From Anaerolineales bacterium (GTDB taxonomy: Bacteria > Chloroflexota > Anaerolineae > Aggregatilineales > UBA2796): 64,000 nucleotides of DNA. The translations under genes and the position numbers were made by a program. Numbering within the stretch: position 1 is the first letter of the stretch; every line of letters starts with the position of its first letter. Of the stretch, positions 9,679 through 54,046 are shown piece after piece. The notes below the pieces were generated by a model. It ran no database searches and was not told the origin of the DNA. It worked only from the letters and a program-made list of their open reading frames with translations. Location: assembly GCA_015075625.1 (NCBI GenBank), contig JABTTZ010000003.1:186001-250000 (forward strand). The letters run 5' to 3'.

Positions 9679-12600
9679 ATGACCGCTCTCGCTGCCACCA
9701 ATAACCTTATATCTATTGCCGATATTCGCTATCGCCGTCTCGAAAAAATTGGCGAGGGCGGTATGGGGACGGTCTACCGCGTCTATGATCGGCTTTCTAA
9801 CAAGGTCTTGGCGCTCAAGACTGTCTCCACCGCTGGCGAACAACACTGGATGCACTCCCGTTTCTCCACGAGTGATCGCACCGATAGCCAAACCAGCCTA
9901 CGCCTTGCCCTTGCCCACGAGTTCCAAACGCTTGCCTCGCTGCGCCACCCGAACATCGTCAGCGTGACCGATTACGGCTTCAACACCGACAAAAACGCTT
10001 ACTTCACGATGGAAATTCTGGATGGCGGCGAAGACATTGTCACCGCAGCGGGGAAAATACCCCTCGCCGGACGGGTTAGCTTGCTGATCCAGATGTTTGA
10101 GGCGCTTGCCTATGTCCACCGCCGAGGGCTGCTCCACCGCGACCTAAAGCCAGCAAATGTCCTCGTCTTTGAGGGCGTTGTAAAGGTCATTGATTTTGGG
10201 CTGTCCGTCATGGGCGATGCCGAGAGCGGCACATCGGGGACGCTCTACTACATGCCGCCCGAAATGCTTAGCGGCTTGCGTGCCTCGGCAGCCTCTGATC
10301 TCTATGCAGCGGGCGTTATTGGCTATGAAATGCTCACCGGACACCATCCCTTCCCTACCGAGAGTCTTTCGACATTCATGGTGGCGGCGCTCAGCGAACT
10401 GCCCGATCTGCGCGAGATTGATCCCGCCCTCCAAGACATTATCGCCGTGCTGCTCAGCAAAATGCCCGCAGACCGCCCCGCCAGCGCCAGCGAAGTGATT
10501 CATGCTTTGCGCGTCGCCTTTCCCGATACAGCGGCGGGCATTGCCGAATCGATCCGCGAGAGCTACCTGCAATCCGCCCCTTTTGTTGGGCGGGCGGAAG
10601 AACAGAACAAACTATTCACGGCTATGGAGGAATTGCTTGGCGGGCGCGGATCGGCGTGGCTGATCGGCGGCGAGAGCGGGGTGGGCAAATCGCGCTTGCT
10701 TGACCAAGTGCGTGTGAGGGCGCTCATTGCCGGGGCGCTTGTCTTGCGCGGTCAGGCGGCAAGCGGCGGGCGGATGCCTTACCAAACATGGCGCGATACG
10801 CTACGCTGGTTGGCGCTGCTGACTGATCCCAAGACTTTAGAGGCAAGCATCCTCAAGCCGCTTGTCCCCGATATTGACATGCTTCTAGAGCGCCAGATTC
10901 CCCCCCCACCGCCCCTTTCGCCCATCGCCGCCAAAGCGCGGCTCATAGCGACGATCACCGATATTGTCAGCCGCCAACCCTACCCGATTGTCCTGATCGT
11001 TGAGGACGTGCAATGGGCGGGGGCGCAAAGCCTCGATTTGCTGAATGCGTTTGTCCGCCTGAGTGCCTCGCATCCTTTATTGGTTTTGGGCAATTACCGC
11101 GACGACGAAGCGCCGCAGTTGGCAGTGCAGTTGGCGGCAATGCACCACCTAAAGTTAGGACGCCTTCTCCCCGCCCAGATCACCGCCCTAAGCCGTGCCA
11201 TGATCGGTGAGGTGGAACAGATGGATCACGTCCTTGAACTCCTTCAGCGGGAGACGGAAGGGAATGTCTTCTTCCTTGTGGAGGTTGTCCGGGCGCTGGC
11301 GCTGGAAGCGGGTGATCTGAGCAAGATTGGTGAGCGCACCCTTCCGGCGCATGTCTTTACTGGTGGGGTGAATAAACTGCTTGAGCGGCGCTTGGCGGCG
11401 CTCCCTTTGGAGAGCCGTCATTTGCTCCGGTTGGCGGCAGTGGCGGGGCGGGCGCTTGATCTCGATGTACTGCGCGTTATGAGCGATCCTAAGTGGCTGG
11501 ATCATTGGCTCACACTCTGTCAGGATGCAGCTGTTTTAGAATATCATGAGGGGGCGTGGCGTTTTGCCCATGACAAACTCCGCGAGAGTATCCTCCGTGA
11601 GATGGACGTGGATCAACTGAGCGCCTTGCACCGCCGCATTGCCGAAGCGATGCAAAAACGTTATGGGGCGGATACCGCCCATGCCTCTAGCCTAGCCTAC
11701 CATTGGGGCGAGGCGGGCGACCTTCCCAAAGAGGGGTATTACGCCGGACTCGCTGGCGAATATGCCTTGCAAAATGGCGCGTATCAAGAATCTGTGGTGT
11801 TTCTAGAAAAGGCGTTGAATCAAGACGTTACTCTCACCCCCGACCCTGAGCAGCGCAAACATCTTCCCCGTGCGGAGCGGGAACGTGCCTTAGGGCAAGC
11901 ATATTATGGGTTGGGAAATCTGGGAAAGGCGCGGGAGCATGGCTCACAGGCGCTTCTTTACTTGGGGCGGAAACTCCCCGAAGGGCGGGGGGGGGTCTCA
12001 GCGCTGATCCGTGCCTTTGCGCGGCAGTCTGCGCACCGCATCGGAGTCATCCCAAAAGTGCTGGGAGAGGTACGCCCCATTCACGAAGCGGTGCGCGTCT
12101 ATGGCTTAATTGGGGAAATTTCCTATTTCACCGCCGAGCCACTTCTGGGGGTGTACTGTGTCTTGGGCATGACGAACCTTGCCGAGTCCATTCCGCCGAC
12201 GCCAGAGCTTGCCCGCGCCTATGTGAACATGGGCATTGCCATGCAATTGATTGGCTTTCCCAAACGGGCGCGGCGTTATGTAGAGCGGGCGCTGGAGGTT
12301 GGCACAGGGCTGAGCGAAAAAGCAATGTATGCGCAGGTCTTAAACCTTGCCGGCGTCTGGCATGTGGGAATGGGCGAATGGGCGGAGGCGCAAACCTATT
12401 TTGAGAAGGGGCGCGATCTTGCCCACGAGATTGGAGACCGCCGCGAGTGGATTACCTCGTACACAACACTTGGCGTCATGTGCCACTATCAGGGACGCTA
12501 CCACGATTCAATGCTCCTGAACAGCACTGCCTACGAACACGCCACCCAACTGGGCAACAAGCAGCAGCAGGGGTGGGGCATGTACACGAAAGCGGAGAGC

Positions 12601-16469: not shown

Positions 16470-17471
16470 TTACTTCGGAAGTACATTAAAGACGCCGTAC
16501 CCCGCTGCCGTTTTCGCCCCAATGCCCAACTCATTGAGCGCAGCTTGCAGCCATCCTGTGACGGTATCCAGCGGGGGGGTATGCCCTTTCCGCGCCGCAA
16601 CCGCAAAGGCAAACGTGACACCATGGGTGACGGTCAGGAAGGGGACAGGAACAGGATACTCGGCATCGTGCGGCGCCCCATTGCCTTGATAGTAGCTGTT
16701 GAAGTGCGGCGTCATCACATCAACCTTAAAAAGCTTTCCTTGCTTGGGAAGCCCTTCGACCCCGGCGATAACTGCATCGAAAAAGACGCACGTTCCGGCG
16801 GCATCTTGGCTGCCAAACACCTCGGCATAGGCGCGTGCAGCGGGATCATCCTCAAGCCCCTTGCGGTCAAGCTTAGAAACAGCGTGTAGAAGCTCTCCCC
16901 ACATTTTCTCCCGATCTTCTTTCACACCTGCCAATGCCGCGTCTAAGAGATCAAGGTGGGAAGACAATTTTCCCTCGTTTAACTCTTTGCTGTTGAGCAG
17001 GGAGATATTGAACTGCGCGGCAATGGTGAGCAGCGCATAGGCGCGGGTCAGTCCCTTAAGGGCGCTGCCCGGGATGATGGGCAGACCACAGACGTGCTGT
17101 ACGGTCAGCCCAAATTCCATCGGACCCTTTCCGCCCAAACCGACAATCAACCGTCCTAACGAACGTGCCGTAAAGCGTGCTGCTCCTTGCGTTCTTTGCT
17201 GCCAACGGGCATACTGCGCCTTGAGGAGGGTTTGCCATGCACTGTTGCGCCCCAAATCAAACTGCTGGCAAACCACCTCCTGAAGCCAGCCATCGCGGTA
17301 TTTCCGTTTGTCGCCCTTATCGTTGGGACGCCAATTCAGATTATTCGTGATTGCCTCCTGTGGCACATAGCGCCCCAAAAGTAAACTGAGGTTCACGCAT
17401 TTCCCAACCCTGTCGTCGTTGATCAAGCCTCTGGAGTCTTCGGGGACAAGATAGGTTGCCATCGGGTTCAC
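16470..17471 (-). CDS. cmr6: Type III-B CRISPR RAMP protein Cmr6
   Basis: Last gene of the cmr operon, 333 residues. The RAMP-type fold shows in GLPIIPGSALKGLTRAYALL, the Gly-rich loop motif typical of Cmr6, and in AAGYGVF near the C-terminus. Cmr6 caps the backbone of the Cmr complex on the target-RNA side. The GTG at 17471 overlaps the cmr5 stop by four bases; an internal ATG lies three codons later. Its place behind cmr5 supports the assignment. Confidence 0.92.
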   Translation of the reverse strand: MNPMATYLVPEDSRGLINDDRVGKCVNLSLLLGRYVPQEAITNNLNWRPNDKGDKRKYRDGWLQEVVCQQFDLGRNSAWQTLLKAQYARWQQRTQGAARFTARSLGRLIVGLGGKGPMEFGLTVQHVCGLPIIPGSALKGLTRAYALLTIAAQFNISLLNSKELNEGKLSSHLDLLDAALAGVKEDREKMWGELLHAVSKLDRKGLEDDPAARAYAEVFGSQDAAGTCVFFDAVIAGVEGLPKQGKLFKVDVMTPHFNSYYQGNGAPHDAEYPVPVPFLTVTHGVTFAFAVAARKGHTPPLDTVTGWLQAALNELGIGAKTAAGYGVFNVLPK

Positions 17472-17827
17472 TCTTGCCCTTCAGCAAAGCGTTTTAGCCA
17501 GAGCAGATAGGCAAGTACTTCCGCCGTCGCCCGGCGGTAGTCTGCGGTGTTCTTCGTCAGCAGGGTTTCCAAAAGGGTTTGCCCTTGCCAGCCAAGCTCT
17601 TTCAAAACCCATGAGGAAAGGTGCCTATTCAAGGCGTTGTGTTCGTCTTTTCCTTTTGCCTGAAGAAATGCCAACGATGCTCCCAAACCATCCCGTTGGA
17701 CGTTTGCGGCGAATCCTTTCACCAGTGAGGGGTATTCCTTGATCTTTTTGGCGCTCTGAACATCTTTCCAGGCTTGTGCTGCCCGCTTTTGCTGAAGGGT
17801 TTGTTGGTTAGAGGGTTGGTTCGTCAT
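17468..17827 (-). CDS. cmr5: Type III-B CRISPR small subunit Cmr5
   Basis: A 119-residue, fully helical protein of the size expected for Cmr5 (Cas11 small subunit). It opens with LQQKRAAQAWKDVQ, close to the family's usual QxRAxxAW start, and contains the YPSLVKGFAANVQRDGLGASLAFL segment typical of the family. Multiple Cmr5 copies line the inner surface of the Cmr filament and contact the crRNA-target duplex. It lies 7 bases after cmr4 and overlaps cmr6. Confidence 0.92.
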   Translation of the reverse strand: MTNQPSNQQTLQQKRAAQAWKDVQSAKKIKEYPSLVKGFAANVQRDGLGASLAFLQAKGKDEHNALNRHLSSWVLKELGWQGQTLLETLLTKNTADYRRATAEVLAYLLWLKRFAEGQE

Positions 17828-17834
17828 AGCAGCC

Positions 17835-18710
17835 TCACTTTACCCAACGCAAGGCAACCATGCCCTGCCCCGTCGTTTCATCACCGCCTAGTTGAATCCC
17901 TGAAGGCACAGAGGTGGTGAGCCAATTAGACACATCACTGCTGGTTTTCAAACGATTGCTGCTGCCGCGTGGTTTACGCGCCACAATGTGACTGAATAAA
18001 AGGGAATCCGCTGGCAGCGACTCGGTTGTCCACAAAGCGCCATGGGCAACGGTTTTTGTCTCCACCTCCAGTTTAACATGGGTAGCAATTTCGGTGCTGT
18101 TTTGCACAAAGTCGCGGAAGGCGTTATCCGGCAGCAGAACAAGACTGCTTTGAACTTTCTCGTGCCAATAGCTGTAGGCATCCCCGGCGGGAAAGGCGTT
18201 CTGCGCCAGCCATTGGGCAACCTTTGTTAGTTTGGCGTCTTCCTTAGCCGCAAAGGCGAACTCCTCTAAGACGACATGCCCATTGGCATCGACGGCTTTA
18301 CCCGAACGCAGTGCCTTGTCTTCCTCCAACGCGCCAAAGGTGAAATCCGGAAGCCCTTGCGCACCCACTGCTTGCAACGAGCGCCCCAAACGGGAAAGGG
18401 CAAGCGGACTAGTCACATAGGCGAAGATGCCCACCAATGAACGCACCGGAAAGAGCGCGATCCGCGCCTCGCCCACCGAGATTGCCCCGGCGTGATCGGC
18501 GGCGTTGTTCGTTTCGGGACCAAACACAGTGTTCACCTCGTTTGTATCTGTGGCTTGGCTGCGTAAGGCGCCTTTCACGCCGCTGCCTTGCACAATAGGA
18601 AACTGCGTCGCCCGCTCGCGTTGAATGGGCAGGTCTACGGTGGAAACGCTCGATCCCGTCCCGGCATGGAGCGGGGACTCGGTATAGAAAAACAAGACCA
18701 ACGAGTTCAT
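17835..18710 (-). CDS. cmr4: Type III-B CRISPR backbone RNase Cmr4
   Basis: A 291-residue RAMP protein. The N-terminus LVLFFYTESPLHAGTGSS and the motif PIVQGSGVKGALRS match Cmr4, the Cas7-like subunit that forms the filament backbone and cuts target RNA at 6-nt intervals. The conserved acidic region following the first RAMP strand includes Asp26 in STVDLPIQRER, the position expected for the catalytic Asp. The target-RNA cleavage activity therefore looks intact, although the active-site residue is assigned only by position. Confidence 0.92.
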   Translation of the reverse strand: MNSLVLFFYTESPLHAGTGSSVSTVDLPIQRERATQFPIVQGSGVKGALRSQATDTNEVNTVFGPETNNAADHAGAISVGEARIALFPVRSLVGIFAYVTSPLALSRLGRSLQAVGAQGLPDFTFGALEEDKALRSGKAVDANGHVVLEEFAFAAKEDAKLTKVAQWLAQNAFPAGDAYSYWHEKVQSSLVLLPDNAFRDFVQNSTEIATHVKLEVETKTVAHGALWTTESLPADSLLFSHIVARKPRGSSNRLKTSSDVSNWLTTSVPSGIQLGGDETTGQGMVALRWVK

Positions 18711-18745: not shown

Positions 18746-19891
18746 TTACCACGCGGACAGGACAAATCCACCATAGCCCATAGCGCCGTAATCTGGTTCA
18801 CCGGGCGGCGTCTCGGTAAAGGGGCGGGTGAAGGGCGCTGCCCCCTCAAAGTAATAAACAGTGCCAGCGGGGACGAATGCCCGCATCGGTTTCGGTTTTT
18901 TCTGCGCCAAATCCCACCCACTGATGGAAATCGGCTTGCTGACGAGGGCGCTGACTAAATGAGCATCTGGACCAACCCATGTTTCCCAACCCGCCTCGGC
19001 GGGGTACCACCCCCCGGAAAAATAGGCAGGGGTGGTCAGAATAACCTTGATGCGCCCCGGACGTACCGAGGGAAAGGCTGGCGGCGGCGGCACTTCGCGG
19101 TAGAAGGCACTGCGCCCCTCCCCACCTATTAGAAAAACCCCCGGCGTCAGGAGTTTGACCGCCTCATCATTGATGCCAATGAGCAGCCCCACCTGATCAT
19201 CCGGTGCTTTTGTTAGCGGACGGACGAATTCGGCGCTGTAGAGCAGCCCTGTCTTTGCTTTGCGGATATCGTGCGCCATGCCTAAGCCAATTTTTTCCTC
19301 GGTGTGAACGAGATCAGCCTTTTTGTGAACGGTGGTGGGGGTGCTGCCTTTTAGATATGCCTGTACGTCGTTTTCGTCCAACCACCCCTCCACTGGCTTC
19401 CACTCAAAGGGATTTCCCTCAGAGTCACTGCCCGCCAGTGGGGAGACAGGATGCCACTGATCAAAAGGAAGGTTGGTGACCCCTTCCGGCACAGTTTCAA
19501 CCGCTGGTGCGGCAATGCTGTAGACGAGTGATTTAGTCGTTGAGTCCTCCGCCTGCATCAGGTCGTTGGGGGCGGGCAAAAGCCGACTCACCTTTCCTTT
19601 CACCGATCGTGCGATATAGGGTCCGGCAAGGGACAACGCCCCTAACGAAGCGAAATGATCATTACCTCCGGGCAGCCCAATCGCTTTTATCAGCGCCGGA
19701 TCAACACGACCCTCCTTGTACGCCTCAAAATCAACGCCGGCTTGCTCAAGGATGCTGGTGCGGATCACGCCCGCTATCGTCTGGGGATAGGGGGGAAAGA
19801 CACTGCGGGCAACAAACGCCTGCCCCGCCGCAAAGGGGCGCGATTCACGGAACATCCACACATCGTGCGCTTCTAAGAACAACCACTTCAT
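18746..19891 (-). CDS. cmr3: Type III-B CRISPR protein Cmr3
   Basis: A 381-residue protein when started at the ATG at 19891 (MKWLFLEAHDVWMFRESRP), which overlaps the cas10 stop by four bases. The opening WLFLEAHDVWMFRE and SVFPPYPQTIAGVIRTSIL are the standard Cmr3 signature (Cas5-like subunit that binds the crRNA 5' tag with Cas10). The C-terminus ends with a YGAMGYGGFVLSAW glycine-rich segment. A 35-base gap separates it from cmr4. Confidence 0.92.
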   Translation of the reverse strand: MKWLFLEAHDVWMFRESRPFAAGQAFVARSVFPPYPQTIAGVIRTSILEQAGVDFEAYKEGRVDPALIKAIGLPGGNDHFASLGALSLAGPYIARSVKGKVSRLLPAPNDLMQAEDSTTKSLVYSIAAPAVETVPEGVTNLPFDQWHPVSPLAGSDSEGNPFEWKPVEGWLDENDVQAYLKGSTPTTVHKKADLVHTEEKIGLGMAHDIRKAKTGLLYSAEFVRPLTKAPDDQVGLLIGINDEAVKLLTPGVFLIGGEGRSAFYREVPPPPAFPSVRPGRIKVILTTPAYFSGGWYPAEAGWETWVGPDAHLVSALVSKPISISGWDLAQKKPKPMRAFVPAGTVYYFEGAAPFTRPFTETPPGEPDYGAMGYGGFVLSAW

Positions 19892-21438
19892 GAGCGTACC
19901 CCTCCTGAGGCAAGCAGCCGCGCCAAGATCAACCAAGCGCCCAAGCGATCCCATCCCTGCGCCTCGCCAAGTGCGGCAAGTTGAGGGGCAAGATCATTGA
20001 TCCGCTCTTTCATATCCCCTGCTTTGCTGCTGATGCGGCGTTTCAACAGGCGGCGCAGTTCCGCTTCCCGTGCTTCGGGAGGTAGGGCAGTGTTCCCTTG
20101 CGTTGGAAATGCCTCAGCAATGGTCAAGATGTCATAGCCAATGCTGGATGAAAGCCAGTCCTGTTCGCGATCAAAGGCACGTTGCAATTGTTCCATCAAG
20201 CCGCTGATCTGATCCCACTTAGCGCCCATCGCTCGGATCGCAGTGGAGCGGCTGTCCCGAATGACCACCGCATCGCGCCCAAAGTCATTTTTGGCGCTCT
20301 TTTCCGCTGCCCGCGCTTCATCCATGACACTATCAAGGGGGAGGTGCGTTTTCATGAGGGCAATGCCAGCACTAGCGGTGACTGCCCCGTTCATTACTTC
20401 GGCAAGAGCAAGGCGCAGTTTATTGGCGCAAGGGAGCGCCGTCTTCAGCGGCAAAAGTGCCAAAACATCATCGCCCCCGGCGTAAATCAGCACGCCCTTG
20501 TGTTCGGTAACAATGTCGGGAACAGACTGTTGAGCAAAGACGGCAAGATTATAGGAAATTTCCTGATGTTTGGCTTTTGTTCGGCATTGGGAAAGCGTTT
20601 TTCCCATGCGATCCCCGTCCATATGCAGCACAGCGAGGTAGAGCGGTGTCTCCTCGTCTTTTTTAGGCGGCGGCGCACCAGCACGGGCAACACGTTCCAC
20701 ATCGGCAATGCCTTCAATGGTGCCATCTTCACCACGCAGATCAGGGACAGCCCACTGCCCCACGCGCTTGATCAGCGCCAGCGCCCCAAGCTGCTCATTT
20801 TTGCGGATGACCATATGATCATCCCTGCCATCAGGACTCCAATAACGCTTTAGAGTCTCCGCATTACGGAGGGTATCCCAGAACTTGCCATCGTTGGAAA
20901 GTGCTGCCCCTGCCCCCGTGAGGGTGCATTTGAATTCCGCCACATCGTCCAACTGGGTGAAATTCCGCAGTTGGCGGCGGATCGCCAGTGCCTTTGATGC
21001 CTGTGTGTAAGAGTTTCCATGCTCTTGGGGATCATACGGAACACACACCCAGAAGCATTCCAGCCAGTCCTTCGTCTGTGCCTTGAAGCGATTTGTCCAT
21101 TCGCCATCCCCCAAGCGATCCCACAACCACTGCTCTACGCGGTTGACAATCTCCTCAAGCCAATAGGTGCGGATTGCTTTCTCCACCTCTGCGCCCAGTG
21201 TGCCATCCTCACTGAGGAAGGCGAAGCGATGCGGAATAGCACGGGGAAGGTCGCCCTCCCCATCCATCGCCGGGAAAATCATCGTCTCGCTGGTGACCCC
21301 GCGCTGTTGGGCATGGCGAATGCCAGCACGGGCAAGCAGGCTGAGCAAGCGGCTGCCGACGTACAAATCCTGGGTGCGCCGCGCGGCGGCAATGAAAGAC
21401 TGCACGGGTCCAATTTGGAACAGGTACAAATGGGTCAT
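19888..21438 (-). CDS. cas10: Type III-B CRISPR Cas10/Cmr2, cyclase with no visible HD domain
   Basis: A 516-residue large subunit, shorter than classical Cmr2 proteins. It starts with the hallmark IGPVQSFIAAARRTQDLYVGS. The palm-domain motifs are intact: LHMDGDRMGKTLS and the GGDD loop at residues 321-324 (YAGGDDVLALLP). The enzyme should make cyclic oligoadenylates when target RNA binds. No His-Asp pair of an HD nuclease is seen anywhere, so ssDNA cleavage is not expected. It overlaps cmr1 upstream and cmr3 downstream by four bases each. Confidence 0.93.
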   Translation of the reverse strand: MTHLYLFQIGPVQSFIAAARRTQDLYVGSRLLSLLARAGIRHAQQRGVTSETMIFPAMDGEGDLPRAIPHRFAFLSEDGTLGAEVEKAIRTYWLEEIVNRVEQWLWDRLGDGEWTNRFKAQTKDWLECFWVCVPYDPQEHGNSYTQASKALAIRRQLRNFTQLDDVAEFKCTLTGAGAALSNDGKFWDTLRNAETLKRYWSPDGRDDHMVIRKNEQLGALALIKRVGQWAVPDLRGEDGTIEGIADVERVARAGAPPPKKDEETPLYLAVLHMDGDRMGKTLSQCRTKAKHQEISYNLAVFAQQSVPDIVTEHKGVLIYAGGDDVLALLPLKTALPCANKLRLALAEVMNGAVTASAGIALMKTHLPLDSVMDEARAAEKSAKNDFGRDAVVIRDSRSTAIRAMGAKWDQISGLMEQLQRAFDREQDWLSSSIGYDILTIAEAFPTQGNTALPPEAREAELRRLLKRRISSKAGDMKERINDLAPQLAALGEAQGWDRLGAWLILARLLASGGVRS

Positions 21439-22352
21439 TTCAATTCACCTCCCCATACGGTCTCCCCATCCCAAAGCTCAGTCGCATCGCGCATAAAATT
21501 GTTTAGCACCTTCCAATCAATGGGCGATCTCTGAACTTCAGAGCGCATCACGGTAAGGATAGGGATATAGTGCTTCCCAACTTTGCGCATCTGGGCGATC
21601 AAGGGCGAGGCACGCCGCCCCTGCATGGCGTAACCAAAATTCCGCTCAGCGTTGCGGTATTTCTCTGTGCGGAGCAGCTTTTGGAACAAATCGATCATCA
21701 AGGGCTGCCATTCCCTATACTCGGTTGTCTTGCCCACAATCACCCAACTATGCTGAGGATGTAGGGTGGGAAAGGGTGGGGGTGGGACGCTTTGTGAAGG
21801 GGAATTCTTGATGAAACTCTGAAGGTAATATTCCATAGACGCGATTAGCTTATCGGCAGAGGAAAAATCCACGATCTCGCGATTATTGACATTATCGCGA
21901 TTATTGACATTAAACGCCCCAAACATGCGCCGTGAACGCTTGCCAAGCCCTCCCAACAAAAACCATGTATAGAGCGCCCGCTGGAAGGCATTGGGGATCT
22001 TTACGCCGGGACGGGTGACCACCTGAAGATCGAACGTTTGCCCCTGTTTAAATGCCTTTGCTAGCGATTTTCCATTGCTGCGGTGGGGGAGCATGGATGT
22101 CTCAACGGTTTCTAGGCGGTTCATTTCATACAGGCGAATGGACACCTGCGATCCCCGCTCCGTAGAGCCGAACACGTTTCTTTCCCGCTCACGGAGCGTT
22201 TCTAAGTTGGCGTCCTTCGCCCCTTCAATGGCGCGAAACCAGTAGCGAAGCTGCCCCCGCACAGAGGCGGCACGCAGTTCCGGCTCTTGTTGATATGCCC
22301 CATAGAGAAAAAGGGGTGACGTTATCCCCAACGGATGATTTTCGGATGCCAT
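21435..22352 (-). CDS. cmr1: Type III-B CRISPR RAMP protein Cmr1
   Basis: A 305-residue Cmr1. The signature runs through ITSPLFLYGAYQQEPELRAASVRGQLRYWFRA (split here by a few residues), then NVFGSTERGSQVSIRL. Cmr1 sits at the distal end of the complex and binds target RNA. It starts 7 bases after the CARF-HTH gene, and its stop overlaps the start of cas10 (ATGA). It is somewhat shorter than some Cmr1 proteins, but the essential N-terminal RAMP is complete. The C-terminal part contains RRASPLIAQMRKVGKHYIPI, also typical. Confidence 0.9.
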   Translation of the reverse strand: MASENHPLGITSPLFLYGAYQQEPELRAASVRGQLRYWFRAIEGAKDANLETLRERERNVFGSTERGSQVSIRLYEMNRLETVETSMLPHRSNGKSLAKAFKQGQTFDLQVVTRPGVKIPNAFQRALYTWFLLGGLGKRSRRMFGAFNVNNRDNVNNREIVDFSSADKLIASMEYYLQSFIKNSPSQSVPPPPFPTLHPQHSWVIVGKTTEYREWQPLMIDLFQKLLRTEKYRNAERNFGYAMQGRRASPLIAQMRKVGKHYIPILTVMRSEVQRSPIDWKVLNNFMRDATELWDGETVWGGELK

Positions 22353-22359
22353 AAGGCGG

Positions 22360-23178
22360 TTACTCCCATCCTTTCATAATCTTGATCAACGCCAAGCGCA
22401 CGTCGCGGATTTTCTCCCCAAAGTCAAAGACCGTGCGCACGGTGTCGTAAATGATTTGCAAATGGTTTTGCACCGTCTTGATCGACAGCACCAACAAATC
22501 CGCAATTTGCTGGTCGCTGTAGTCCTCGTGCGCCGCCAGCGCATTGGCAACCCGATGCTGAGCGGGCGTCAGCCGCGAGAGCAGCATCTCTTTGCGGTTC
22601 AGCCGCCGCCGCAGATGCTCAGTGATGTCCTCGCGGGTGAGCGCCTCCAACGTTGTTGGCGCAAAACGCGAGGGCAAAAAGGGCAGCGCCGCCACCTGCA
22701 CTCGCCCCCGATCTGCGATGGGGACATGGTAAGCATTCGTCGCCATGATGTCTTTCGGCGTCAGCACCGTCCACACCTGATCATATTCATCCAGCAGCAG
22801 CGAGGCGGCGTAGACGGCGTAGACGCTCATCGCTTTGCGCCCGCCCGCCACCATTAGATGAATTGTGTACTCCTGCTGTTTGTAGGCAAGCAGCGCATCC
22901 AGCACGCCGTAAAAATACGCCTCGGCGGAGGAATCATCCTCAATATCCAGCAGCGGATTCCCGCCGAGGTCATAGATTTCATGGCTGTCCACAGGCAGTT
23001 CCGGGTAGGCGCGGGCTATCTCTGCCTGCAAATCGCGCAGTGGCGCGGCAATGCCCGAACGTTCCGGGTCGGTGTGCAGCAGCCCGATCCGTTCATAGGT
23101 GTAGCGTTCCCAGGGCGTCAAAGGCGACGGTCACTGCCTGCGGACGCTGCCCAATAGTGGCAAGGTGAGGTGGGGCAT
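22360..23178 (-). CDS. CARF (NE0113-like) protein fused to LuxR-type HTH, frame disrupted near the N-terminus
   Basis: The intact frame begins only at a TTG (23121) and gives 253 residues. They contain IGLLHTDPERSGIA and HLMVAGGRKAMSVYAVYAASLLL, the second CARF signature of Cas_NE0113/ring-nuclease-like proteins. A LuxR-type helix-turn-helix follows at about 195-245 (YSDQQIADLLVLSIKTVQNHL). The missing first strand is present just upstream in another frame as HLATIGQRPQAVTVAFDAL. One C missing after the ATG at 23178 (run 23172-23175) and one base too many in the run 23109-23111 would restore a single protein. Such a fusion should link cyclic-oligoadenylate sensing to DNA binding. Pseudogene or sequence error are both possible. 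Confidence 0.75.
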
Positions 23179-23185
23179 GAGGAGG

Positions 23186-24307
23186 TCACTGCTCCCAGTA
23201 CAGTTGATTCAATTGATCGGCTGCCCATGCCAATTGCTCAGCAGTGGGTGATTCCACACTCGTGAGGATTTCAAACCGAGCGCCATAATCGTTCCGGTAT
23301 GTGCCAACAAGTTTCCCTTCGTAGGCATAGAAATCCCCTTTGATGGCTTTTTGTTTGTGATAGGGGAGCGAATGGGCGGTTTTGATCCATGCCACCTCTC
23401 GACAGACTTTTTCGACAAATGGTTTGAAGCCATTGGGGTAGTGATCATCACGGAAGCGAGGGGGCGTTTTTTCTCCATCTTTGACGGGCGGCAGTTGACG
23501 GTCACGAGGGTAGGCCGCCCGAAACCCGGTCAGGTAAATTTGCCCAACAGCGCCTAATCCAAAGACATTCTCGCCATCAATTTCGTATTCTTCAAGCAGC
23601 ACACGAATCTTGTCGTCAAGTTCGTGAATCTCATTCAGGGTGAGCGTGTCGTTGCGCTCAAAACGGGCAAGTAACCCAGCATTCTCCCCCAAGATGCTGT
23701 AATCAAAGGAGATCGGCATCGGTGGAATGGTGATGATCTCAGAAAAACGCTCATGCCGGTACAGGACAGGAATACTTAATGCCTGCCCAAAAACAACGGC
23801 AATAGCGATTTGCGCCTTGTAGCCGCCAGTGGCGTCAATGATGATCCTCTCGGCGCCATATTTCTCAACCAAATCCCCAATTTGCCTCACCAAGTTCCGC
23901 AGCCCAAATGTCCTGAACCGTGCGGGGTTTTCATCCTGAAGCCCTTCAATAGGATAAGAATCCACGCTTTGGATGTCCTTGAGACCGCGTTCGATGTAGT
24001 AATTCTCTAGGAGCTTGCCCATGTTTTTGCCATCTTCGGTATCCGAGACTAGAAAACAAAGATGGTTTAAGGTGACCCGTCCGCGCCTCACTGCCTCGTC
24101 AATGGAGTTGATCTCTGCGCCGCAAATGCGTGCCGCTGGCGGAATTTTGACTAGTTCGCTGGCAAGCCGCGACCACTGTTTTGCGGCTAAGTGTTCCTTC
24201 AATATGTCGTGGGTTTCTTTTGAAATTCCGTTCCCTTCATTGAATTGCCCTTTGATATTGGCAAAAAGGCTTGTTCCAACGGTGCTGATTAGGCAATTTG
24301 CGGACAT
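23186..24307 (-). CDS. CARF-domain CRISPR effector, C-terminus possibly RelE-like
   Basis: A 373-residue CRISPR accessory protein of the APE2256/Csm6-like CARF group. The two ligand-binding CARF motifs are STVGTSLFANI (residues 8-18) and IIDATGGYKAQIAIAVVFGQ (about 156-175). A winged-helix-like linker (TLNEIHELDDKIRVLLEEYE ... FGLGAVGQIYL) follows. The last 90 residues (about 285-373) are mixed alpha/beta with basic and aromatic residues. Their order in this family recalls CARF-RelE mRNA interferases (Cami1), but I cannot verify the fold. An RFRDDH string matches the loose HEPN spacing, but its context does not. It probably binds cyclic oligoadenylate and acts on RNA. Confidence 0.8.
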   Translation of the reverse strand: MSANCLISTVGTSLFANIKGQFNEGNGISKETHDILKEHLAAKQWSRLASELVKIPPAARICGAEINSIDEAVRRGRVTLNHLCFLVSDTEDGKNMGKLLENYYIERGLKDIQSVDSYPIEGLQDENPARFRTFGLRNLVRQIGDLVEKYGAERIIIDATGGYKAQIAIAVVFGQALSIPVLYRHERFSEIITIPPMPISFDYSILGENAGLLARFERNDTLTLNEIHELDDKIRVLLEEYEIDGENVFGLGAVGQIYLTGFRAAYPRDRQLPPVKDGEKTPPRFRDDHYPNGFKPFVEKVCREVAWIKTAHSLPYHKQKAIKGDFYAYEGKLVGTYRNDYGARFEILTSVESPTAEQLAWAADQLNQLYWEQ

Positions 24308-24319
24308 GTAAAAGATCCT

Positions 24320-24700
24320 TTAGCGCCGCGCACGGGCGGCATTCCGAACGGAATCCAAATTGATGATCTCTCCAACCTCAAACGTACTTACCACCGCCCC
24401 CGCCACTGGACGTAGCCGGATAATCGTGGGAAAGCGCCCCATCCGTCCGTGCAGTTCCGCCAGCACAATAGCGGTGATGAAATTCAGCGCGGGTGGCACA
24501 ATCAGCCACGCCTCTTTTTGCCACTCGTCGGGGGTGATCGCCAAATCATCGATCATCGTTACAACTTGTGGGGTGAATTCTTTTTCTAGATCAAACTGAA
24601 CGCGCACATCCCGTATTTCCTGTGCTATTAACTCCGTTAATGTCTCAAGTTGATGTATTTGTGCATCGGTTAAAGGATGTGAAAAATTAATCACTTTCAT
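24320..24700 (-). CDS. csx15: CRISPR-associated protein Csx15
   Basis: The ATG at 24700 (MKVINFSHPLTDAQIHQLE) is the family's normal start, so the upstream in-frame start at 24724 is rejected. The 126-residue protein contains the conserved ELHGRMGRFPTIIRLRPV and TPDEWQKEAWLIVPPALNF blocks, together characteristic of Csx15. Csx15 occurs beside type III CRISPR systems and is related to ring nucleases that bind or degrade cyclic oligoadenylate. It is the first gene of this operon, 12 bases before the CARF protein, and could dampen the signal. Confidence 0.85.
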   Translation of the reverse strand: MKVINFSHPLTDAQIHQLETLTELIAQEIRDVRVQFDLEKEFTPQVVTMIDDLAITPDEWQKEAWLIVPPALNFITAIVLAELHGRMGRFPTIIRLRPVAGAVVSTFEVGEIINLDSVRNAARARR

Positions 24701-24958
24701 AGGAATGTCTACTATTCCGTGCAATGTTTGCTTGCTATAAAGGATACCATTCCAATCCAGTATCTCACAAATAGACCTTCAGCACATGGGTATTTACCCC
24801 CAAAAAACGTCTCCCTCTGGAGGGAGGGTATGGGATTAGGATATAAACCGGGGTCGCAAGCTGGATAAAGGCGAGGAGGTAGCAGCAGTAGCAGCAATGA
24901 GTTCGTTACACCCGGCAGTCTCTTGGCGGCTGCCCGGTGTAACCACAAGAGGAGCGAT
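24701..24958. promoter_or_regulatory. Intergenic region before the CRISPR operon, with two hairpins and no array
   Basis: A 258-base gap upstream of csx15, which should contain the promoter of the csx15-cmr operon. No direct repeats of CRISPR type are present. CTCCCT-CTGG-AGGGAG (24811-24826) is a small hairpin. GTTACACCCGGCAG and CTGCCCGGTGTAAC (24905-24918 and 24930-24943, one mismatch) form a 14-bp stem just past the ClC gene stop and probably end that transcript. No clear -10/-35 pair could be chosen for csx15. Confidence 0.5.
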
Positions 24959-36607: not shown

Positions 36608-37020
36608 ACTGTACCCTATCTGAAAGACAACTTTGGGGGTATCTAGGAATTTTGACAAGGCAGGTGAGAGTGTACGCTATTGGTTCAGAACCTCTATCCC
36701 CCTGCCCCCTTTCCCCGCAGACAGGGAAAGGGGGCAGGGGCGGGCGGACGCCTCAGGGTTCCTCCCTACGGGGTGCGGGCGGGATGGCGCGTCAAAATAT
36801 CAATATAGGCTAGGGTCTGTTGACCGTGTAATTCCCGTAGGGGCGCCATACCTTGCGCCCATCGCCGCCCGCCGCTAAAGCAGCGGGCTAGGAGTAGCCA
36901 CCCCTTCGGGGCTTGGAAGGCATTGTCGCACCGGTTGTTCTACACCTCTTCACCCCAAAGGACTTTTTTGTTTGCACTTAGGGCAGCGAAAAGTGTGGCA
37001 CATGTACAGGATAGGTAGGG
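36608..37020. repeat. Intergenic region with family A and family B repeats
   Basis: About 410 bases with no coding region. A perfect 17-bp inverted repeat is at 36699-36715 and 36724-36740 (CCCCTGCCCCCTTTCCC and its complement, 8-base loop); this is the best copy of family A. A family B element, GCCCGCCGCTAAAGCAGCGGGC, lies at 36867-36888 (20 of 22 shown positions paired). CCACCCCTTCGG at 36899 matches the piece before 13350. TTGACA at 36652 has no matching -10. The segment separates the sugar kinase start from the DarTG end. Confidence 0.75.
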
Positions 37021-43527: not shown

Positions 43528-43698
43528 GATGCTTTTGATTGTCCTACGATTGCTAAGGTCTGTTTGCAACCTATCTCCCCGGCGCTAAAGCAGCGGGCTG
43601 AAAGCAGATTTTTTGATTTCTTCTGATCTCAGCCGGCTGCTTAGCACTGGGATCACGCCCTTTATCCTATCAACATCCCCTAATCTAAACTACTGCGC
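43528..43698. repeat. Family B repeat between the HEPN-like gene and glyQS
   Basis: CCGGCGCTAAAGCAGCGGGCTGAAA (43579-43603, with adjacent bases) is a family B copy; a related inverted piece, GCCGGCTGCTTAGCACTGG, follows at 43632. Together they can fold into one hairpin. No gene is seen in this 171-base gap. Confidence 0.6.
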
Positions 43699-53896: not shown

Positions 53897-54046
53897 AATG
53901 TTCCTAGTTAGGGTTAGACTTTGAAAGGTTAGCCATTATCCCCCGCGAGGGGTAAAACCCCAACCCCTGTAGCGGGCGCAGACCATACGCCGGCGCCAAC
54001 GCTCTATCGCCCGCCGCTAAAGCAGCGGGCTGAGATCATCCCCTGG
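53897..54046. repeat. Family B repeat between acs and uppP
   Basis: CGCCCGCCGCTAAAGCAGCGGGCTGA lies at 54008-54033 (CCCGCCGCT pairs with AGCAGCGGG across AA). GCCAACGCTC and a CCCCAACCCC tract accompany it, as near the 36867 copy. Confidence 0.7.

Follow-up and report, generated by a model that had tools for sequence, protein, structure and literature searches.

Most of the type III CRISPR-Cas signalling outputs that have been studied are destructive enzymes or pores. A role in transcription was predicted by Makarova in 2014 for two groups of CARF-containing proteins, Csa3 and NE0113 (PMC4012209). Csa3 is characterised and binds DNA in vitro independently of cA4 (PMC8844856, PMC8699464), which counts against a ligand-gated reading of related regulators, and a 2024 survey of type III systems set regulators aside (PMC11229360). 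The description of transcriptional output as the least explored branch of CARF signalling, made in an earlier sequence-only reading of the DNA examined here, is fair, but the branch is not unexplored given the 2014 prediction and the work on Csa3. The open-licence literature yielded no description of an operator, a promoter layout or a LuxR-type domain for NE0113/CARF3 proteins, and the LuxR-type domain assignment, operator and promoter layout presented below look new.

The regulator considered here is encoded in a 64-kb stretch of an Anaerolineales genome (the window) and joins a CARF domain to a C-terminal helix-turn-helix (HTH). Profile searches confirm its proposed location inside a Cmr operon, in which csx15, CARF7, the regulator, cmr1, cas10 and cmr3-6 (type III-B) follow one another on the same strand (Table 1). 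The reading we prefer, at a probability of roughly two in three, is that the regulator is a cyclic-oligoadenylate-gated transcription factor that activates its own operon. Cmr would recognise target RNA, whereupon Cas10, with its cyclase motif intact and no HD match in the profile search, would make cyclic oligoadenylate, most likely cA4. The messenger would bind the CARF dimer, and the C-terminal pair of LuxR/NarL-type HTH domains would act at an 18-bp dyad near -42, in place of a -35 box, to recruit RNA polymerase to the csx15-CARF7-regulator-cmr1-6 operon in a positive feedback for which csx15 may be the off-switch. The ligand and its identity, the dimer, DNA binding and activation over repression are the parts of this scheme that we infer. 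Neither the window nor the surroundings of a type I locus that the same genome has on contig C1 (C1:866000-900000, L078/L079), with cas7, cas6, cas1 and a WYL regulator, showed a CRISPR array. Copies resembling CCCGCCGCTAAAGCAGCGGGCT are dispersed at 36868-36896, 43578-43606 and 54010-54038 and are possibly a small repetitive element.

Table 1. Features of the regulator locus, in window positions.
Feature	Positions	Strand	Basis
Operator-like imperfect dyad TTGGGGGTAAATACCCAT (minus-strand reading)	24786..24803	.	alignment, pattern and matrix searches
-10-like hexamer GATACT, 21 nt after the dyad	24759..24764	-	promoter scoring
csx15 (ring nuclease family), first gene of the operon	24320..24700	-	NF040560 2.9e-42; conserved ATG at 24700
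CARF7 protein, CARF related to Cami1	23186..24307	-	PF09651; PADLOC CARF7_DUF2103
Regulator gene, N-terminal end	23111..23178	-	frame reading and orthologue N-termini
Regulator gene, open part: CARF3 (NE0113-type) and LuxR-type HTH	22360..23121	-	ORF, Pfam/NCBIfam/PADLOC, homologues, orthologue model
Four-helix LuxR/NarL-type HTH, LTPAQHRVANAL...IRDVRLALIKIM	22372..22572	-	HTH profile and structure models
cmr1	21435..22352	-	TIGR01894 1.4e-16
cas10/cmr2, GGDD cyclase motif intact	19888..21438	-	PF22335 3.3e-37
cmr3	18746..19891	-	PF09700 1.6e-56
cmr4	17835..18710	-	TIGR02580 5.4e-66
cmr5	17468..17827	-	PF09701 5.5e-28
cmr6	16470..17471	-	TIGR01898 5.2e-45

The regulator gene had been taken as one reading frame over 22360-23178, which does not hold for the window copy. 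The ATG at 23178 is in frame with the rest of the gene, yet a TGA at 23133-23131 intervenes, and the open part is a 253-codon ORF with a TTG start at 23121 that covers the CARF domain from beta-2 onward, the linker and the HTH, with AGGRKAMSVYAVYAASLLL in the CARF part and DQQIADLLVLSIKTVQNHL in the HTH part. The segment LATIGQRPQAVTVAFDAL (beta-1, ligand loop and alpha-1) is encoded at 23164-23111 on the minus strand in a different frame from the rest; the N-terminal consensus of the homologues is M-x-x-x-[FY]-[LIV]-A-T-[LIV]-G-Q-R-P. The orthologue in locus L032 has 273 aa in a single frame and the window gene is shorter by exactly one codon, which a 1-nt plus a 2-nt deletion would account for; these could be either real or assembly errors. 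Because of these two apparent frameshifts the function of the window copy is uncertain, and all functional inference on the regulator rests on intact orthologues. The TGA and the two frame changes within the first 23 codons would suit a decaying pseudogene in this Anaerolineales genome, with the function conserved only in relatives, as would the presence in G001, of the same genus, of a cmr operon that lacks the regulator module and the mere remnant of the regulator left in G009. Such decay is compatible with the preferred explanation for the family but seems rather unlikely, as each of the three segments still codes in its own frame, the remainder of the gene is 75% identical to orthologues and has no further damage, the other operon genes are intact, and indel errors in the assembly would give the same picture.

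The CARF half carries the NE0113-like signature that had been noticed, and the window ORF matches Pfam Cas_NE0113 (PF09623) at 3.4e-15, above the family cut-off, as well as the PADLOC CARF3 cluster PDLC01851 over residues 6-245, nearly the whole ORF, at 4.9e-42. All 32 homologues fall in the same NE0113/CARF3 CARF family. A structure model of the 273-aa orthologue from L033, built from the 32 homologues (mean pLDDT 92.3, pTM 0.81), has a clear CARF fold up to about residue 168, then linker helices and four helices at 206-270, and its CARF domain is closest to that of the ring nuclease Sso2081 (Z 17.6, 144 residues, 1.9 Å), tied with Cad1-CARF. That the closest solved CARF is a ring nuclease raises the alternative that the regulator is mainly one as well, with a CARF domain that degrades cA4 and switches the response off and an HTH that serves dimer formation or local tethering. 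Weak matches below cut-off of the window protein to the NCBIfam families Csx14 and NE0113 'ring nuclease Csm6' point the same way, as does the NCBI name of the Rhodothermus homologue, 'CRISPR-associated ring nuclease'.

The ligand site helps to weigh the two readings. R115 and K116, each present in 31 of the 32 homologues, align with the cA4-binding R105/K106 of Sso2081, and across the same alignment motif II (Gly-Arg-Lys) of the Crn1 ring nucleases is kept. Motif I (Gly-Thr-Ser) retains its Gly, whereas Thr-Ser has become Gln-Arg in 24 of 32 homologues, and the position of Sso2081 Ser11 is occupied by R (24), E (4), Q (2) or A (1) and by Ser in none of the 32. R105 of Sso2081 is indispensable for binding cA4, and S11 is important for cleavage, its change to Ala strongly cutting activity, while Ser11 is seemingly not critical in Sis0455 (PMC10018336). 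The kept R-K pair and the missing Ser11 thus favour a sensor over a ring nuclease without settling the choice; since csx15 is in addition already present in the operon and both HTH and operator are conserved, a mainly enzymatic role appears improbable. The CARF domain is probably a cyclic-oligoadenylate sensor that gates the regulator. Its likely ligand is cA4, because both Csx15 (PMC13148439) and the neighbouring Cami1-related CARF7 protein point to this species and type III loci tend to use a single cyclic oligoadenylate (PMC11229360).

For the output half, Pfam GerE matches the window protein alone at E 0.02, under its cut-off, and at E up to 0.1 it matches 16 of the 32 homologues, the best at 8.8e-10. 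A profile of the HTH only, made from the 32 homologues, finds VraR (2.4e-9), NarL (6.4e-7) and GerE (1.3e-6), in agreement with the LuxR-type domain proposed from the sequence. The HTH was also modelled and searched on its own, because Foldseek with the full model covered only the CARF half, and it resembles EL222, VpsT, NarL and VraR (Z 9.8-10.6, rmsd 1.8-2.8 Å). The models consist of four helices only, with no wing or beta hairpin, and the assignment of a LuxR-type HTH to the family is near certain.

In relatives, too, the fusion is found next to type III genes. A homologue is present in 34 of 151 related genomes; 25 of the 34 also have Cas10, as against 8 of the 117 others (Fisher p 1.7e-14). 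In a wider set of 400 genomes of the phylum, a manual count gave 56 in which a match spans CARF plus HTH at nearly full length. The homologue loci are of types III-A, B and D, often with csx15 and a CARF7 gene alongside, and in the fetched loci the regulator adjoins cmr operons, csm operons or a III-D-like set (L032), with 18 cas10-like ORFs containing GGDD at distances of 6-6186 nt. In L063, L065 and L071 the regulator gene comes first, ahead of csm1, and likewise on plasmid pRMAR01 of Rhodothermus marinus DSM 4252, the homologue whose record bears the ring nuclease name. Both the CARF-HTH fusion and its type III linkage are near certain. Fold, HTH type and recurrence, the computational checks run on the idea that a CARF signal is turned into transcription, all came out in its favour.

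Several loci show rearrangements around the regulator. In L033 the 3' end of the regulator gene recurs after cmr6 as a 111-bp copy (98%; 10601-10760 and 16593-16703), so that two copies of this end flank cmr1-6, and cas10 and III-D-like genes come next, while in L032 the regulator gene directly abuts the III-D-like set; the two layouts suggest that effector modules have been swapped behind the same regulator. L036 (9961-10120), from a genome without Cas10, has a remnant of the HTH tail of the regulator followed by the start of cmr1. ORFs that are TIR-like by the look of their sequence lie next to the regulator in L040 (8534-9550), L052 and L050 (1837-2817), directly downstream in the first two and on the opposite strand in the third.

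The candidate operator was recognised in the 24701-24958 stretch upstream of csx15, which contains a conserved dyad and a -10 box. An 18-bp imperfect dyad is the one element that can be aligned among the csx15 upstream regions of the window, L032, L033 and L035; its consensus in front of the window and homologue operons is TTGRGTA-N4-TACYCAA-like. In these four dyads 11 of 18 columns are invariant, compared with 8 in the best of 400 dinucleotide shuffles, in a test that was not blind as the motif had first been spotted by eye in the alignment. A pattern derived from L032, L033 and L035 finds the window dyad with one mismatch and no other place in the 64 kb. On whole genomes the 11-base pattern has a single match each in G010 and G008, both at the corresponding promoter, and four matches in the window's own genome, one being the window dyad; the other three were set aside, as two lie inside genes and the third, in front of an ORF that looks roadblock-like by its sequence, lacks a -10 at the expected spacing. 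A matrix built from six dyad sites finds further sites before the homologue in L046, L049 and L058, which, like the site in L119, lie outside its training set; L046 and L049 are same-genus relatives of training loci. The window dyad scores 14.1, the weakest among the well-scoring sites (others 17.6-21.2), and in the distant homologues L081-L099 and Rhodothermus no such dyad was seen within 250 nt; both observations count against the preferred reading.

The promoter layout resembles that of LuxR-activated genes. Of 16 sites, 15 show a -10-like hexamer (at least 4/6) 20-22 nt downstream of the dyad, where the background is 6%, and a -35 match reaches at most 3/6 in 15 of the 16, a set that includes three weak dyads (L037, L070 and L039). 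These three are listed only as weak because a column test for a different shared motif in the cmr promoters of other clades gave up to 9 columns, with close relatives involved, near the shuffle maximum of 8 for the csx15 set. The window csx15 promoter has no -35 match, and a generic scan of its surroundings for sigma-70 promoters and terminators gave no promoter above chance. With the usual distance from -10 to start assumed, the dyad centre falls at about -42 from the predicted start site, and a dyad near -42 with a -10 box and no -35 box is the LuxR-activated layout. A dyad centre near -42 is a known position for LuxR activators, and a conserved operator with an activator-like promoter is likely.

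LuxR-type sites can also mediate repression, which speaks for a DNA-binding autoregulator, possibly a repressor, that binds independently of cyclic oligoadenylate and whose CARF domain modulates something else or takes another ligand. Neither Cas10 nor mCpol was detected in G014, G021 and G029 (loci L043, L046, L056 and L058), near-complete genomes that all have the regulator gene and operator, and such genomes favour this alternative, as does the cA4-independent binding of promoters by Csa3 (PMC8844856, PMC8699464). It is nevertheless doubtful, given that the cA4-binding R-K pair is almost invariant, that the linkage to Cas10 is strong, and that the dyad takes the place of the -35 ahead of the -10, where a repressor site would not typically lie. 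The regulator loci L043 and L046 adjoin CRISPR arrays.

The proposed ligand-gated activator may control more than its own operon. The dyad-plus-promoter pattern occurs three times without mismatch in G014: at the regulator's own promoter, next to where a 40-repeat CRISPR array ends and facing a 96-aa ORF, and at the promoter of a type I operon with matches to cas7 (DevR), cas3, cas1 and cas4 (L119:12223-19516). Another copy of the 96-aa ORF has a near match in front of it, and the sites at L043:11049 and 13518, on the minus strand, each precede one of these near-identical ORFs, which have a predicted membrane segment and CxxC...CxxC and look small membrane/zinc-ribbon-like by sequence; they are possible new regulated genes. 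No dyad-promoter site was found before the type I locus of the window's own genome. It can be put forward tentatively that bacterial type III systems have a messenger-gated LuxR-type activator of their own, through which target RNA would turn on the type III operon and sometimes a type I interference and acquisition operon. If so, an alarm raised by RNA targeting would strengthen DNA-targeting immunity as well as memory.

If type III systems encode such a ligand-gated activator themselves, together with a defined operator, their alarm would also reprogramme transcription, and a CARF-LuxR switch could serve as a simple RNA-triggered tool for gene expression. The prediction made for NE0113 proteins becomes directly testable, now that the protein and its candidate ligand can be named along with the DNA site and the promoter, and Rhodothermus marinus offers a homologue in a cultured species. 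Among known systems, archaeal Csa3, associated with type I-A, also combines a CARF sensor with a C-terminal HTH in CRISPR-Cas loci and has been proposed to connect the cyclic oligoadenylate of type III systems with transcription. Its HTH is winged and its loci are of type I, whereas the regulator has a four-helix LuxR/NarL HTH, occurs in bacterial type III-A/B/D loci and faces a dyad at the LuxR-activator position; the Csa3 family TIGR01884 is not among the matches of the window protein up to E 1. The NE0113 family (PF09623, TIGR02584) and PADLOC CARF3 represent the same CARF family with a full-length cluster match, under database names that mention only CARF or ring nuclease. Crn1 Sso2081 has the same CARF fold and the GGRK motif II but is without an HTH, and its motif I Ser is not conserved in the regulator. 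The VpsT/LuxR/NarL proteins, of which VpsT binds the cyclic nucleotide c-di-GMP, are alike in HTH fold and in a dyad at about -42, with a receiver or autoinducer domain as sensor where the regulator has CARF. CalpL-CalpT-CalpS is a further type III system with a transcriptional output and cleaves an anti-sigma factor, whereas the regulator would join sensor and DNA binding in one protein.
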